A stretch of 64,000 nucleotides of DNA from Solobacterium sp. (GTDB lineage: Bacteria > Bacillota_I > Bacilli_A > Erysipelotrichales > Erysipelotrichaceae), in NCBI GenBank assembly GCA_017512555.1, contig JAFWFE010000036.1, forward strand, positions 1 through 64,000. Reading direction: 5' to 3'. Of the stretch, positions 39,029-43,020 are shown one piece after another. The position numbers and the translations under genes were made by a program. Under the pieces are notes generated by a model. It saw nothing but the letters and a program-made list of their open reading frames with translations, had not been told where the DNA came from and made no database searches. Each line of letters begins with the position of its first letter. The first letter of the stretch is position 1.

Positions 39029-39529
39029 ATGTATAAAATAGATGATGTGGTTGTTTACAAACGCACAGTCTGTAGAGTGCAGGACAGAGTGAAGAGCGGC
39101 TTCACCGGCGAAGACTGCTATATCCTTGTCCCGTACAATGATGATACCGGCAGTACCAGAATGCAGGTACCGGTATCCAATAAAGCTGGGCATCTCCGTG
39201 ATCTGATCACCAAGGAAGAACTTCGTGATCTTCTTCGTAATTCAGATAAGATAAAGACGCTTGCGGATAAACAGGCGAATATGAAGAGCCAGTATGTGAC
39301 TCTCCTGAAAAGCGACAGCCTGGATGATTTGATCTGCATCATCAAGACATCGTATCAGCGTAACAAAGTCAGAAGGGAAAACAACAAGAAATTAGCCGCT
39401 ATTGATGGTGAGTATCTGAAAAAAGCAGAAGATTATCTGTTTACGGAAATGTCTGTCGCAACCGGCATGTCCTATGAGGAATGCAGACAATACTTTGCGG
39501 ATGAATTAAACAAACTGGAGAATCAGTAA
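39029..39529 (+). CDS. CarD family transcriptional regulator
   Basis: A 166-residue CarD/CdnL-like protein. The N-terminal RNA-polymerase-interacting Tudor-like domain reads MYKIDDVVVYKRTVCRVQDR...YILVPYNDDTGSTRMQVPV; a helical C-terminal domain follows (QYVTLLKSDSLDDLICIIKTSYQ, then MSVATGMSYEEC). Such proteins bind RNA polymerase beta and stabilise open complexes at promoters. GAGAGG precedes ATG, with TATAAT at about 39001. In a genome apparently rich in extended -10 promoters without good -35 elements, such a factor could matter; that link is inference. Confidence 0.9.
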   Translation: MYKIDDVVVYKRTVCRVQDRVKSGFTGEDCYILVPYNDDTGSTRMQVPVSNKAGHLRDLITKEELRDLLRNSDKIKTLADKQANMKSQYVTLLKSDSLDDLICIIKTSYQRNKVRRENNKKLAAIDGEYLKKAEDYLFTEMSVATGMSYEECRQYFADELNKLENQ

Positions 39530-39553: not shown

Positions 39554-39628
39554 TTTATCAGCGGCTGTACAGCTGTACGGTCTTTTTGTAATTCTGTGAT
39601 AATATAGAGATACAAACGGAGAAATAGT

Positions 39629-40504
39629 ATGACAACGATGCAGAAACTGTTTGAACAGGACAAAGAGAAATTCCTGACAAACATCCAAGATGAACATCAT
39701 CCGGAAGCCCTGGTCAAAGCTCTGGACTCCGAATTAAGCAGAATCCTTTTTCTGTACAATGAAGCAGAAGAAAGTGATCGTGTAAAAGCTGCGGCTTACA
39801 GTATCATGCAGAGTATACGTTCCGGGATCAGTCTGCTGGACTGTATCCGTGATACCAAGGTATATTCCCGGCAGAACCTTCAGAATGACGGTAAACAGAA
39901 AAGGAGATCACCGAAGTTCTTTATCGCGTTGATTGCGGGAATCTTGTGTATCTGCGCAGCTTGTCTGGTCTTGTTTATGTCTGCCGGTACATTGCAGGTT
40001 CCTGTTCAGATGACTGCTGTACTAGGCGTGATTGCGGCAGGGGCGGTATGTCTGTTCCTGGCTGGTGTCTTCCTGAATTCCCGCGGAATTACCCGGAATA
40101 TGCAGTTTGAGGCAGAGGTAATCTATGACCCGCAGAAAATTTATAGAAATGTATTCGGCATGTTGATCACGGTAGATCAGATGCTGGAGAATACGCGGAG
40201 TGAGGAGACGATTGACCGTCGCCATGCCCTGGAAGAGGAGAAGGATAAGATCAACCAGAAGGAACTGAACTTCCTCTGTCAGCTTCTGGAAGATGCCTAT
40301 ACGCATAAAGATACAGACTATGGCAGGGAAACCATCTCTCATATCAAGTATTACCTTCACGGCAGACATATCGATGCTCTTGATTATACGGATGAAGATG
40401 CGGTGTGGTTTGATCTTCTGCCCGGCAGCGGCGGTACACTACGTCCTGCGCTTGCCATGGATGGATTACTGTTGAAGAAAGGACTGGCTTCGGGAGGTAA
40501 ATAA
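39629..40504 (+). CDS. Membrane protein, partner of the Hsp70-like ATPase
   Basis: A 291-residue protein I do not recognise. Residues 1-90 are helical and soluble. Two membrane helices follow (about 96-116 and 128-150: FFIALIAGILCICAACLVLF and VLGVIAAGAVCLFLAGVFL). A second helical soluble region contains a charged coiled-coil stretch (SEETIDRRHALEEEKDKINQ). Both soluble parts probably face the cytoplasm. GGAGAAATAG precedes ATG. Its stop overlaps the Hsp70-like start by one base, indicating that the two are made together and probably interact. Confidence 0.75.
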   Translation: MTTMQKLFEQDKEKFLTNIQDEHHPEALVKALDSELSRILFLYNEAEESDRVKAAAYSIMQSIRSGISLLDCIRDTKVYSRQNLQNDGKQKRRSPKFFIALIAGILCICAACLVLFMSAGTLQVPVQMTAVLGVIAAGAVCLFLAGVFLNSRGITRNMQFEAEVIYDPQKIYRNVFGMLITVDQMLENTRSEETIDRRHALEEEKDKINQKELNFLCQLLEDAYTHKDTDYGRETISHIKYYLHGRHIDALDYTDEDAVWFDLLPGSGGTLRPALAMDGLLLKKGLASGGK

Positions 40505-42435
40505 TGGATCGTTATTTTGGTTTTGACCTTGGTGATGCCGAAAGTGCGGTAGCCCGTCTGAAACGACATGATCAGCTGATTCCGGATATCCTGACTGTAA
40601 GGGATGCGAAGAGCTTTGTGACGGCATATGCGTTACTGCGTGACGGCCAGCTGCTGATCGGTGAAGGCGCCTGTTACAACCCCGATGCTTTGACACGGAA
40701 AATACGATTTAAGAGCCGTTTCCTGAACGATACGGCTTCAGCCAAGGATATCCGCAGTTTTGCGGCAGGAGTACTTGGTGAACTATATCTGAATGGTGAT
40801 CTGATCAAGGGAGAAGACTGTTGTTTCTACGTTGGCTGTCCGGCCGGCTGGGATAAAAACGCCAGAGAAGAATACCGCGGAATCTTTGAAAAGACCGGGT
40901 TTCCGCCGGTAAAAATCATTTCCGAATCCCGTGCTGCCCTGGTCAGCGCCTGCCAGTCCAAGCATCTTCAGGTAGGCTATGATATTCTTTCACGTCCGGT
41001 GCTGGTCATCGATATCGGTTCTTCCACGACAGACTTTGCGTATATCATGGGTGGAAAAGAAGTGGAACTGAAGACGGCGGGGGAGGTTTACCTCGGCGGC
41101 GGAATCATGGATGAGATCCTGCTGGAAGAAGCAATCAGACAATCATCGGATGAAAAGAAGATACGCAAGATCTTTGCGGAGAGTGAAGCGTGGCGGAGCT
41201 ACTGCGAATTCTCTGCCCGCAGGCTCAAAGAAAAGTACTTCTCGGATGAAGAATACTGGCGCGCGAATGACTGTATGCAGACCGTGTCCATACGCTATAC
41301 AAGATTACCGGTACGTTTTGTCCTGCGGATGAACGAGAGAATCGCGGATGCTCTTCTGAACAATCCGGTAGAACGTCTGGAAGGGAAATCCTTCCGTGAG
41401 GTATTCACCGAAAGCCTGATCCAGGTCAGAGACAGTATTACGGAGAAACAACCGGAACTGATTTTCCTGACCGGCGGTGTATCCAAACTTCCGGCGATCC
41501 GTAACTGGTGCCGTGATATCTTCCCGGATTCGGTGATCATCAGCGGCAGTGAACCGGAATTCTCCGTGGCGAGAGGTCTGGCCTACTGCGGAAAGATTGA
41601 CGATGAACTGCGTGAATTCAAGCAGGATATCGAACGTCTAAAGGAATCCAGTGTTGTAGAAAATATCGTCGGCGCAAACATTGATAAGTTGTATCGTGAC
41701 GCGGTGGATACGTTTGTGGAACCGATTCTGGAGAATGTCGCGTTACCGGTGATTGAACGCTGGAGACAGGGCGGAATTGATAAATTATCAGATATTGATC
41801 ATGTGCTGCAGGAAGAAATCGATGCTTACCTGCACATGGAAGATGCCCGCAGATTACTGATGAAACCGGTAGCTTCCTGGCTGAAGACGGTCTCCTTCGC
41901 ACTGGAGGAACATACGATGCCGATCTGTGTACGGCACAATGTACCGTATTCCGCGCTGAGCCTGAATTCTTACTTGAACCTATCGGATATGGAGATCCGT
42001 GTGGATACCAAGGATATCTTTGCGGTGAAGGAGATTACCTGGATGATCGATACGATCGTATCCATTCTGATCGGTTTGTTATGCGGAGGCAGCGGTATCG
42101 CGATGATTGCCAACGGTCTGCCCGGGATTCTTGCCGGCGCTGTGATTTCGCTGTTAGTGCTTGCTCTGGGTAAGGATAAGATGCAGGAAGCAATCCTGAA
42201 CGCGAAGATCCCGCAGCCGGTAAGACATCTGATCCCCAAGTCTTACTTTGAGTCCAGGCTGAACCGGATCGCGGATGAAGTGAAAGAGAGCCTCTATGTC
42301 AATCTGGAGAAAGAAAAGAATGAAGAGATTACTTCCCGGATTGTCAAGGAGATCTCGGAACAGATCGAAGTATGTCTGACCAGGATGGCAGAGGTCGTAG
42401 AGATTCCTCTGGGTGACCGGAATATTTATGATTGA
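40504..42435 (+). CDS. Hsp70-type ATPase fused to a helical region with a membrane hairpin
   Basis: A 643-residue protein. Residues 1 to about 365 are an actin/Hsp70-type nucleotide-binding domain: phosphate 1 FGFDLGDAES (7-16), connect ISESRAALVSA, phosphate 2 VIDIGSSTTDFA (D170), adenosine LTGGVSKLPAIRNW (from 322). There is no peptide-binding domain. Instead, residues about 370-510 are helical and charged, residues about 519-555 form a glycine-rich hydrophobic hairpin (VSILIGLLCGGSGIAMIANG and on), and a further helical segment ends the protein. This order recalls the trunk-paddle-trunk of bacterial dynamins, but no GTPase is present. Coupled to the preceding membrane protein. Confidence 0.85.
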   Translation: MDRYFGFDLGDAESAVARLKRHDQLIPDILTVRDAKSFVTAYALLRDGQLLIGEGACYNPDALTRKIRFKSRFLNDTASAKDIRSFAAGVLGELYLNGDLIKGEDCCFYVGCPAGWDKNAREEYRGIFEKTGFPPVKIISESRAALVSACQSKHLQVGYDILSRPVLVIDIGSSTTDFAYIMGGKEVELKTAGEVYLGGGIMDEILLEEAIRQSSDEKKIRKIFAESEAWRSYCEFSARRLKEKYFSDEEYWRANDCMQTVSIRYTRLPVRFVLRMNERIADALLNNPVERLEGKSFREVFTESLIQVRDSITEKQPELIFLTGGVSKLPAIRNWCRDIFPDSVIISGSEPEFSVARGLAYCGKIDDELREFKQDIERLKESSVVENIVGANIDKLYRDAVDTFVEPILENVALPVIERWRQGGIDKLSDIDHVLQEEIDAYLHMEDARRLLMKPVASWLKTVSFALEEHTMPICVRHNVPYSALSLNSYLNLSDMEIRVDTKDIFAVKEITWMIDTIVSILIGLLCGGSGIAMIANGLPGILAGAVISLLVLALGKDKMQEAILNAKIPQPVRHLIPKSYFESRLNRIADEVKESLYVNLEKEKNEEITSRIVKEISEQIEVCLTRMAEVVEIPLGDRNIYD

Positions 42436-42465: not shown

Positions 42466-43020
42466 ATGACATTTCTGGAGATATTTATTATCGGTGTAGG
42501 TCTGGCCATGGATGCCTTTGCGGTATCTTTGTGCAAGGGACTGACTACCGGAAAAGCTACTGTCCGGCAGGGAATTACTGCCGGTCTTTGGTTTGGCGGC
42601 TTCCAGGCGTTGATGCCTCTGATCGGGTATCTTCTCGGCTGTGCCTTCAAGGATGTGATCGCTTCCGTAGATCACTGGATCGCGTTTGTGTTACTGATGT
42701 GGATTGGAATCAACGCAATACGTTCCGCAAGAGAAGAAGAGAGTGTAGATAACCGTTATGACTGGAGAGGGATGCTGCCGCTGGCTGTAGCCACAAGTAT
42801 AGATGCGCTGGCTACCGGTGTCATGTTCTCCTTCATGCAGGTAAAAATAATACCGGCAGTGTCCTGTATCGGGATCACTACCGGAATTCTGTCGTATATC
42901 GGGATTCAGTTCGGAGCTTATCTGGGAGAGAGATTCCAGAAGAGCGCACAGATCTTCGGCGGTCTGGTACTGATCTTTATCGCCTTCAAGATCTTATTTG
43001 AACATCTGGGTATTATCTGA
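42466..43020 (+). CDS. mntP: Manganese efflux pump MntP
   Basis: A 184-residue six-helix exporter of the MntP (DUF204) family with its two repeats: VGLAMDAFAVSLCKG and ATSIDALATGVMFS, whose Asp residues bind the ion. In many bacteria mntP lies behind a yybP-ykoY manganese riboswitch, but only 30 bases separate it from the preceding gene. TAGAAT (42454-42459) lies six bases before ATG, predicting a leaderless mRNA with no riboswitch. It overlaps the convergent SIR2 gene by eight bases. Confidence 0.93.
   Translation: MTFLEIFIIGVGLAMDAFAVSLCKGLTTGKATVRQGITAGLWFGGFQALMPLIGYLLGCAFKDVIASVDHWIAFVLLMWIGINAIRSAREEESVDNRYDWRGMLPLAVATSIDALATGVMFSFMQVKIIPAVSCIGITTGILSYIGIQFGAYLGERFQKSAQIFGGLVLIFIAFKILFEHLGII

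Follow-up and report, generated by a model that had tools for sequence, protein, structure and literature searches.

Hsp70 uses its ATP cycle to drive the binding of peptides, and GrpE is its exchange factor, with the GrpE beta-domain being the part that touches the Hsp70 ATPase domain. Among the more specialised members of this group, HscC is believed to operate at the plasma membrane by way of the tail-anchored proteins DjlB and DjlC (PMC8215388). Conflict systems containing HSP70, GrpE and a second Hsp70 without a peptide-binding domain have been described by Kaur et al. (2020; PMC7159879). Among membrane-remodelling GTPases, most dynamins of bacteria occur as pairs in operons (PMC6104087).

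The locus analyzed here lies in a stretch of 64,000 nucleotides of Solobacterium sp. DNA (contig JAFWFE010000036.1, positions 1 to 64,000), hereafter referred to as the window, and consists of two open reading frames that, like all features located below, are on the forward strand. The first gene of the cassette (39629..40504) encodes P1, a membrane protein of 291 aa, and the second one (40504..42435) encodes P2, an Hsp70-like ATPase of 643 aa. A preliminary description of the sequence had reported that the stop of P1 overlaps the start of P2, and both codons indeed share one base in the sequence TAATG (40502..40506). Neither P1 nor P2 is explained by any annotated family, and no description of the P1-P2 combination was found in the open-access literature. 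In our opinion there is roughly an even chance that the cassette constitutes a self-contained, membrane-anchored motor of the Hsp70 type equipped with its own membrane-anchored exchange factor.

P2, an Hsp70-type ATPase with a probable membrane hairpin

The nucleotide-binding domain (NBD) of P2 comprises residues 1-364 (40504..41595), as delimited by superposition on Hsp70 NBDs and by its conserved residues. The Pfam HSP70 family matches only residues 110-365, with an E-value of 2.6e-7 and above the gathering score. At the structural level, the AlphaFold model of P2 (mean pLDDT 81.5) superposes on the NBDs of Ssz1, SSB1, DnaK, BiP and other Hsp70 proteins with Z scores of 28.7-30.9 over about 330 residues. 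Residues D8, G10, K70, E141, D170, G172, T175 and D177, together with the TGG.S motif (323-327), are invariant in 54/54 P2 sequences, of which 51 belong to the family proper and three are remote relatives. By their position, we take these residues to be the phosphate- and adenosine-binding motifs of Hsp70 and its catalytic lysine, glutamate and threonine, an assignment with which the DnaK alignment is consistent. The Hsp70-type nucleotide-binding signatures that had been recognized at first sight are thus borne out by the Pfam match, by Z scores of about 30 and by the invariance of the catalytic residues, and P2 would be expected to hydrolyse ATP.

No substrate-binding beta-sandwich or lid is present in the P2 model, the Pfam HSP70 match stops at residue 365 and residues 365-631 are modelled as helices only, in agreement with the earlier claim that P2 has no peptide-binding domain. 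The C-terminal 279 aa of the protein have no Pfam match at a meaningful E-value. This part starts with a helical region in the AF2 model (residues 365-510; 41596..42033) that contains an invariant tryptophan, W420, and is followed by a hydrophobic hairpin with a Gly-rich turn, defined by hydropathy (residues 516-558; 42049..42177), and by the C-terminal helices of the AF2 model (residues 579-631; 42238..42396). The hairpin had been placed at about residues 519-555, and two hydrophobic windows (19 residues, Kyte-Doolittle of at least 1.6) are found there at 518-536 and 538-556, with two such windows also present in 49/51 P2 homologues. The model of the hairpin itself is of low confidence, with residues 530-543 below a pLDDT of 50.

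The best conserved stretch of P2 is its C-terminal tail (residues 625-637; 42376..42414; LTRMAEVVEIPLG), with a median pairwise identity of 85% vs 65% in the NBD. In several superpositions on ATP-state Hsp70 structures the alignment ends with P2 residues 636-637 paired with DnaK 389-391, where the interdomain linker sits, in a part of the model with low confidence. The VVEIPL pattern of the tail resembles the Hsp70 linker in having a hydrophobic run, an acidic residue and PL. It is possible, and we consider it only as a lead drawn from the model, that the P2 tail is a relocated Hsp70 linker.

P1, a membrane protein with a possibly GrpE-like domain

P1 has no match at a meaningful E-value to any Pfam, NCBIfam, PADLOC or PHROG family. 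Its AF2 model is confident (pLDDT 90.6). It begins with a helical domain, after which come a strand, the pair of membrane helices and a second strand; the remainder is made up of a long helix (168-207), two further helices and a small beta-domain with terminal hairpins. The N-terminal helical domain, defined by AF2 and the alignment (residues 4-69; 39638..39835), lacks the J-domain HPD motif in its family consensus. The membrane hairpin, identified by AF2 and hydropathy, is formed by helices 95-118 and 125-150 (39911..40078). Under the same window criterion as in P2, hydrophobic windows are found at 97-115 and 131-149, and 47/55 homologues have two of them, which upholds the initial assignment of two membrane helices to this protein. 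The best conserved part of P1 is its tail (residues 248-291; 40370..40501), which carries the motif FD..P....T[LI].PAL...G.LL[KR][KR]G; the median pairwise identity of the tail/beta-domain is 47% vs 20-30% elsewhere in the protein.

The C-terminal domain of P1 (residues 161-291; 40109..40501) resembles GrpE in shape in VIA-align, with a long helix, two helices and a small beta-domain, a likeness that the preliminary description had not noted. Residues 161-291 superpose on GrpE 1dkg_A (Z 7.3, 131 residues, rmsd 9.3), P1 superposes on GrpE 4ani_A (Z 6.7, 129 residues) and residues 208-291 on 9a81_A (Z 6.8, 84 residues, rmsd 3.4), Z values near 7 being reachable by chance or through common arrangements. 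Three GrpE entries are the only matches listed by VIA that cover the C-terminal beta-domain, in a list where most rows match the membrane hairpin by two helices and in which absence excludes no family. A Foldseek search with the P1 model gave no significant match, and the Pfam GrpE family (PF01025) does not match the P1 of the window. Profile comparison gave no support for sequence homology between P1 and GrpE: against a GrpE profile built from 52 sequences the P1 profile scored 23.5, which is not above the controls, as a higher score was reached with two of the 86 unrelated families. The match in shape was retained because the neighbouring gene encodes precisely the type of ATPase with which GrpE works and because conservation within P1 is highest in the beta-domain. 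On the models, this GrpE-like shape suggests a pair of Hsp70 and exchange factor more directly than a dynamin, and P1 may be the nucleotide-exchange factor of P2.

Linkage and distribution of the gene pair

A scan of bacterial genomes yielded 99 relatives, of which 80 were retained; they come from Erysipelotrichaceae, Lachnospiraceae and other Clostridia. The cassette is carried by both cultured and uncultured bacteria, the former including Lachnospiraceae NK3A20 and Sarcina sp. DSM 11001. The record titles of 62/80 relatives bear RGIG or RUG labels, a count that the heavy sampling of ruminants may bias; we take these labels to denote ruminant gut genome series. In 102/106 loci the gene immediately upstream of P2, in the same orientation, is P1, where the 106 are those with enough upstream DNA, partly non-independent since some species appear twice, and the 102 comprise 97 found by an automatic rule and five in which the P2 open frame simply extends upstream. 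The four unpaired loci correspond to L068, to one remote relative seen twice and to one different system. No P1 is detectable upstream of the P2 of L068 (6001-7908), which has an unrelated membrane gene upstream on the other strand and is the sole case of this kind in the core family. The conservation of the gene pair, one of the checks proposed at the outset, is therefore established and goes far beyond a chance association. Of the two results named there as refuting, a normal Hsp70 substrate domain in the predicted structure and a lack of conserved linkage, neither was obtained. No third conserved gene was found around the cassette in 65 loci, and a larger operon was accordingly rejected. 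P2 sequences share a median identity of 60% and P1 sequences one of 30%; the distance matrices of both proteins correlate with r 0.84 when shared descent is ignored. P1 and P2 are a real unit.

The presence of this unit is patchy. It is found in 41/245 genomes of the family and 5/60 genera and, around the Lachnospiraceae genome G669, in 10/299 genomes of its family and 2/391 of its class, with a few remote occurrences. Two damaged copies were also observed: in L145 (813-2601; G1114:C20) P2 is split in two frames near the boundary between the ATPase domain and the C-terminal part, next to an intact P1, and in G442 (C24, 8825-9097) a second P2 C-terminal fragment (546-636) with an internal stop lies beside a full copy as a decayed duplicate.

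More distant relatives exist in other settings. A conjugative plasmid of the cyanobacterium Calothrix brevissima NIES-22 encodes a full-length relative of P2 with 27% identity over 633 aa, a span that takes in the hairpin region, and a relative of P1 just upstream of it (P1 profile E-value 6.5e-8, residues 1-185). The P1 tail motif follows directly behind this P1 relative in another frame (FDFEPSIDPDSKDYVTLAPALLKGDRLLRRG), so that in the deposited record the last part of the gene does not share the frame of the rest. Sequencing error, decay or frameshifting may account for this frame change (L135, 7997-8886). A more distant pair is present in the Clostridia genome G872 (L147), whose P1-like protein ends in SVYPAVVKDDSIIVKG. 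In the genome G1308 of the Lachnospiraceae family (L148), a remote P2 relative belongs to a larger group of genes that includes one for an AAA+ ATPase. This cluster (L148, 840-12091; G1308:C94) contains two P1-tail-like proteins, the AAA+ ATPase (PF00004, E 5e-28) and a weakly matching SprT-like protein, with two paralogous membrane proteins in its upstream part, and looks like an undescribed Hsp70/AAA+ system.

Insertion of the cassette and its surroundings

In the window, the cassette is flanked on its left by a CarD-like gene (39029..39529) and on its right by a putative MntP-like gene (42466..43020) that starts 30 bases past P2. The CarD-like gene is directly next to MntP in L208-L211. The CarD-like protein is short and matches CarD_C with an E-value of 5e-4, below the cut-off; its adjacency to MntP is conserved in the genus. 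Four further genomes from the genus keep the gene order methyltransferase, CarD, MntP, Sir2, with a CarD-MntP gap of about 65-120 bp. Two of these genomes (G466 and G457) do not have the cassette, and the other two (G512 and G498) carry it elsewhere. From these empty sites in the same genus it follows that the window holds a clean insertion of two genes. In gut bacteria, P1 and P2 have been inserted jointly at several sites that are unrelated to one another. A phage or plasmid origin was considered and rejected: the cassette is absent from the phage records and viral contigs searched, and the sole plasmid match is the Calothrix record.

Upstream of the cassette, a terminator-like hairpin is located 3' of the CarD-like gene (39563..39582), in a region where five such sites were found vs 2.7 expected by chance. 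The hairpin separates the cassette from that gene, and transcription of the two is probably independent. The host genome encodes an ordinary DnaK and an ordinary GrpE elsewhere, and the cassette is therefore an addition and not a replacement.

Alternative readings and proposed mechanism

The preliminary description had seen in these genes an ATP-driven, membrane-associated machine rather than a chaperone, with a trunk and a paddle like those of bacterial dynamins. A membrane ATPase does fit better than a DnaK chaperone, given the Hsp70-type ATPase, the missing substrate domain, the hairpin and the linked membrane partner; the likeness to dynamins does not go beyond the layout. In a dynamin-like remodeller, the Hsp70 domain of P2 would serve as head, its helices as trunk and the hairpin as paddle, with P1 as heterotypic partner. 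The order of parts is the same, from the NTPase head through long helices and a hydrophobic Gly-rich hairpin to the returning helices, and bacterial dynamins are mostly paired in operons in the source cited above. Yet P2 has no GTPase domain, its head being an Hsp70 ATPase, P1 lacks the NTPase domain of the partners in paired dynamins, and the P2 C-terminal part, which Pfam leaves without a meaningful match, scored 18.5 in a profile comparison vs 22.6 for the best unrelated control, a comparison of low power that used only three dynamin-like proteins of Erysipelotrichaceae. Dynamin homology of the P2 C-terminus was searched in Pfam, in PDB sequences and by this profile comparison with three dynamins, with nothing above controls, and we regard a dynamin-like remodeller as unlikely.

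It is similarly improbable that the cassette acts as an accessory system in anti-phage defence or stress conflicts, in which the P2 ATPase would sense or time and the triggered hairpins would perturb the membrane. Such a function would suit its patchy presence (41/245, 10/299 and 2/391 genomes), its movement as a unit, the AAA+ ATPase and other membrane proteins adjoining the remote relative L148 and the precedent of the conflict systems of Kaur et al. (PMC7159879). It agrees less well with the best PADLOC E-values of P2, only 0.024 and 0.035, and the lack of any for P1, with the lack of a conserved defence neighbour, with the absence from the phage records and viral contigs, and with the strong conservation of P2 (median 60%), unusual for a fast arms race. 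The Hsp70 ATPase domain could also belong to a membrane-localised chaperone for membrane proteins with its client site in the helical region, comparable to HscC, thought to act at the plasma membrane via the tail-anchored DjlB and DjlC (PMC8215388). This we hold to be very unlikely, as the P2 model lacks the substrate-binding beta-domain, the P1 consensus lacks HPD and no J-protein neighbour is conserved.

We favor, at the even chance stated above, a membrane-anchored Hsp70-type motor with its own anchored exchange factor. For the cassette, an ATPase fold with conserved catalytic residues, no substrate-binding domain, hairpins, near-constant pairing and movement as two genes were computed. The hairpins of P1 and P2 would both lie in the membrane, and the output would be a force or a change of shape there. 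P2 would bind and hydrolyse ATP through its Hsp70 nucleotide-binding domain, and the opening and closing of this domain would be coupled to the hairpin-bearing helical region without any peptide-binding domain, so that work would be done on or in the membrane. P1, anchored beside P2 by its own hairpin, would contact lobe II of the P2 ATPase domain through its GrpE-like C-terminal domain on the cytosolic side; the ADP release brought about in this way would reset the cycle. More tentatively, and with the chances rather against it, the cassette could represent a scattered and unrecognised class of membrane motors, present in at least Bacillota and Cyanobacteriota, in which an Hsp70 cycle with an anchored exchange factor, freed from peptide binding, drives a membrane hairpin and the EVVEIPL sequence of the P2 tail docks on the ATPase domain in the place of the linker as an allosteric switch. 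If true, membranes would be a possible target of the Hsp70 cycle, much as they are of the GTPase cycle in dynamins, and the cassette constitutes a minimal system of two proteins that is directly testable.

Comparison with known systems

Compared with DnaK and other Hsp70 NBDs (PF00012; structures of SSB1, Ssz1 and DnaK), P2 has in common the fold over about 330 residues and the catalytic residues, at an identity of only 15-19%. The signatures DLG[DH].E[ST] and D.GSST[TL]D replace the usual Hsp70 forms, and P2 has neither a linker directly after the NBD nor a substrate-binding domain. With regard to GrpE (PF01025; 1dkg, 4ani), residues 161-291 of P1 follow a comparable succession from the long helix through shorter helices to the small beta-domain, whereas P1 is probably anchored in the membrane, has an extra N-terminal helical domain and shows a profile-level sequence similarity that is not above controls.

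Like BDLP, LeoABC and DynA (PMC2862293, PMC4159319), P2 presents an NTPase head, helices, a membrane hairpin and helices again, in a two-gene arrangement; unlike them, it is an ATPase of the actin/Hsp70 fold and no GTPase, and a sequence relation is undetectable with the three dynamins compared. HscC with DjlB and DjlC resembles the cassette in joining a specialised Hsp70, believed to be active at the plasma membrane, to a membrane-anchored co-factor, but HscC keeps its substrate-binding domain, uses J-proteins and is thought not to interact with GrpE (PMC8215388). Finally, the GAP1-N2 conflict systems of Firmicutes (Kaur et al., 2020; PMC7159879) have in common with the cassette an Hsp70 domain without peptide-binding domain and a linked exchange factor, putative in the case of P1; the cassette differs from them in having no conserved GAP1-N2, GTPase, FNIII or J-domain neighbour in 65 loci and in the membrane-hairpin region that P2 adds to the ATPase.
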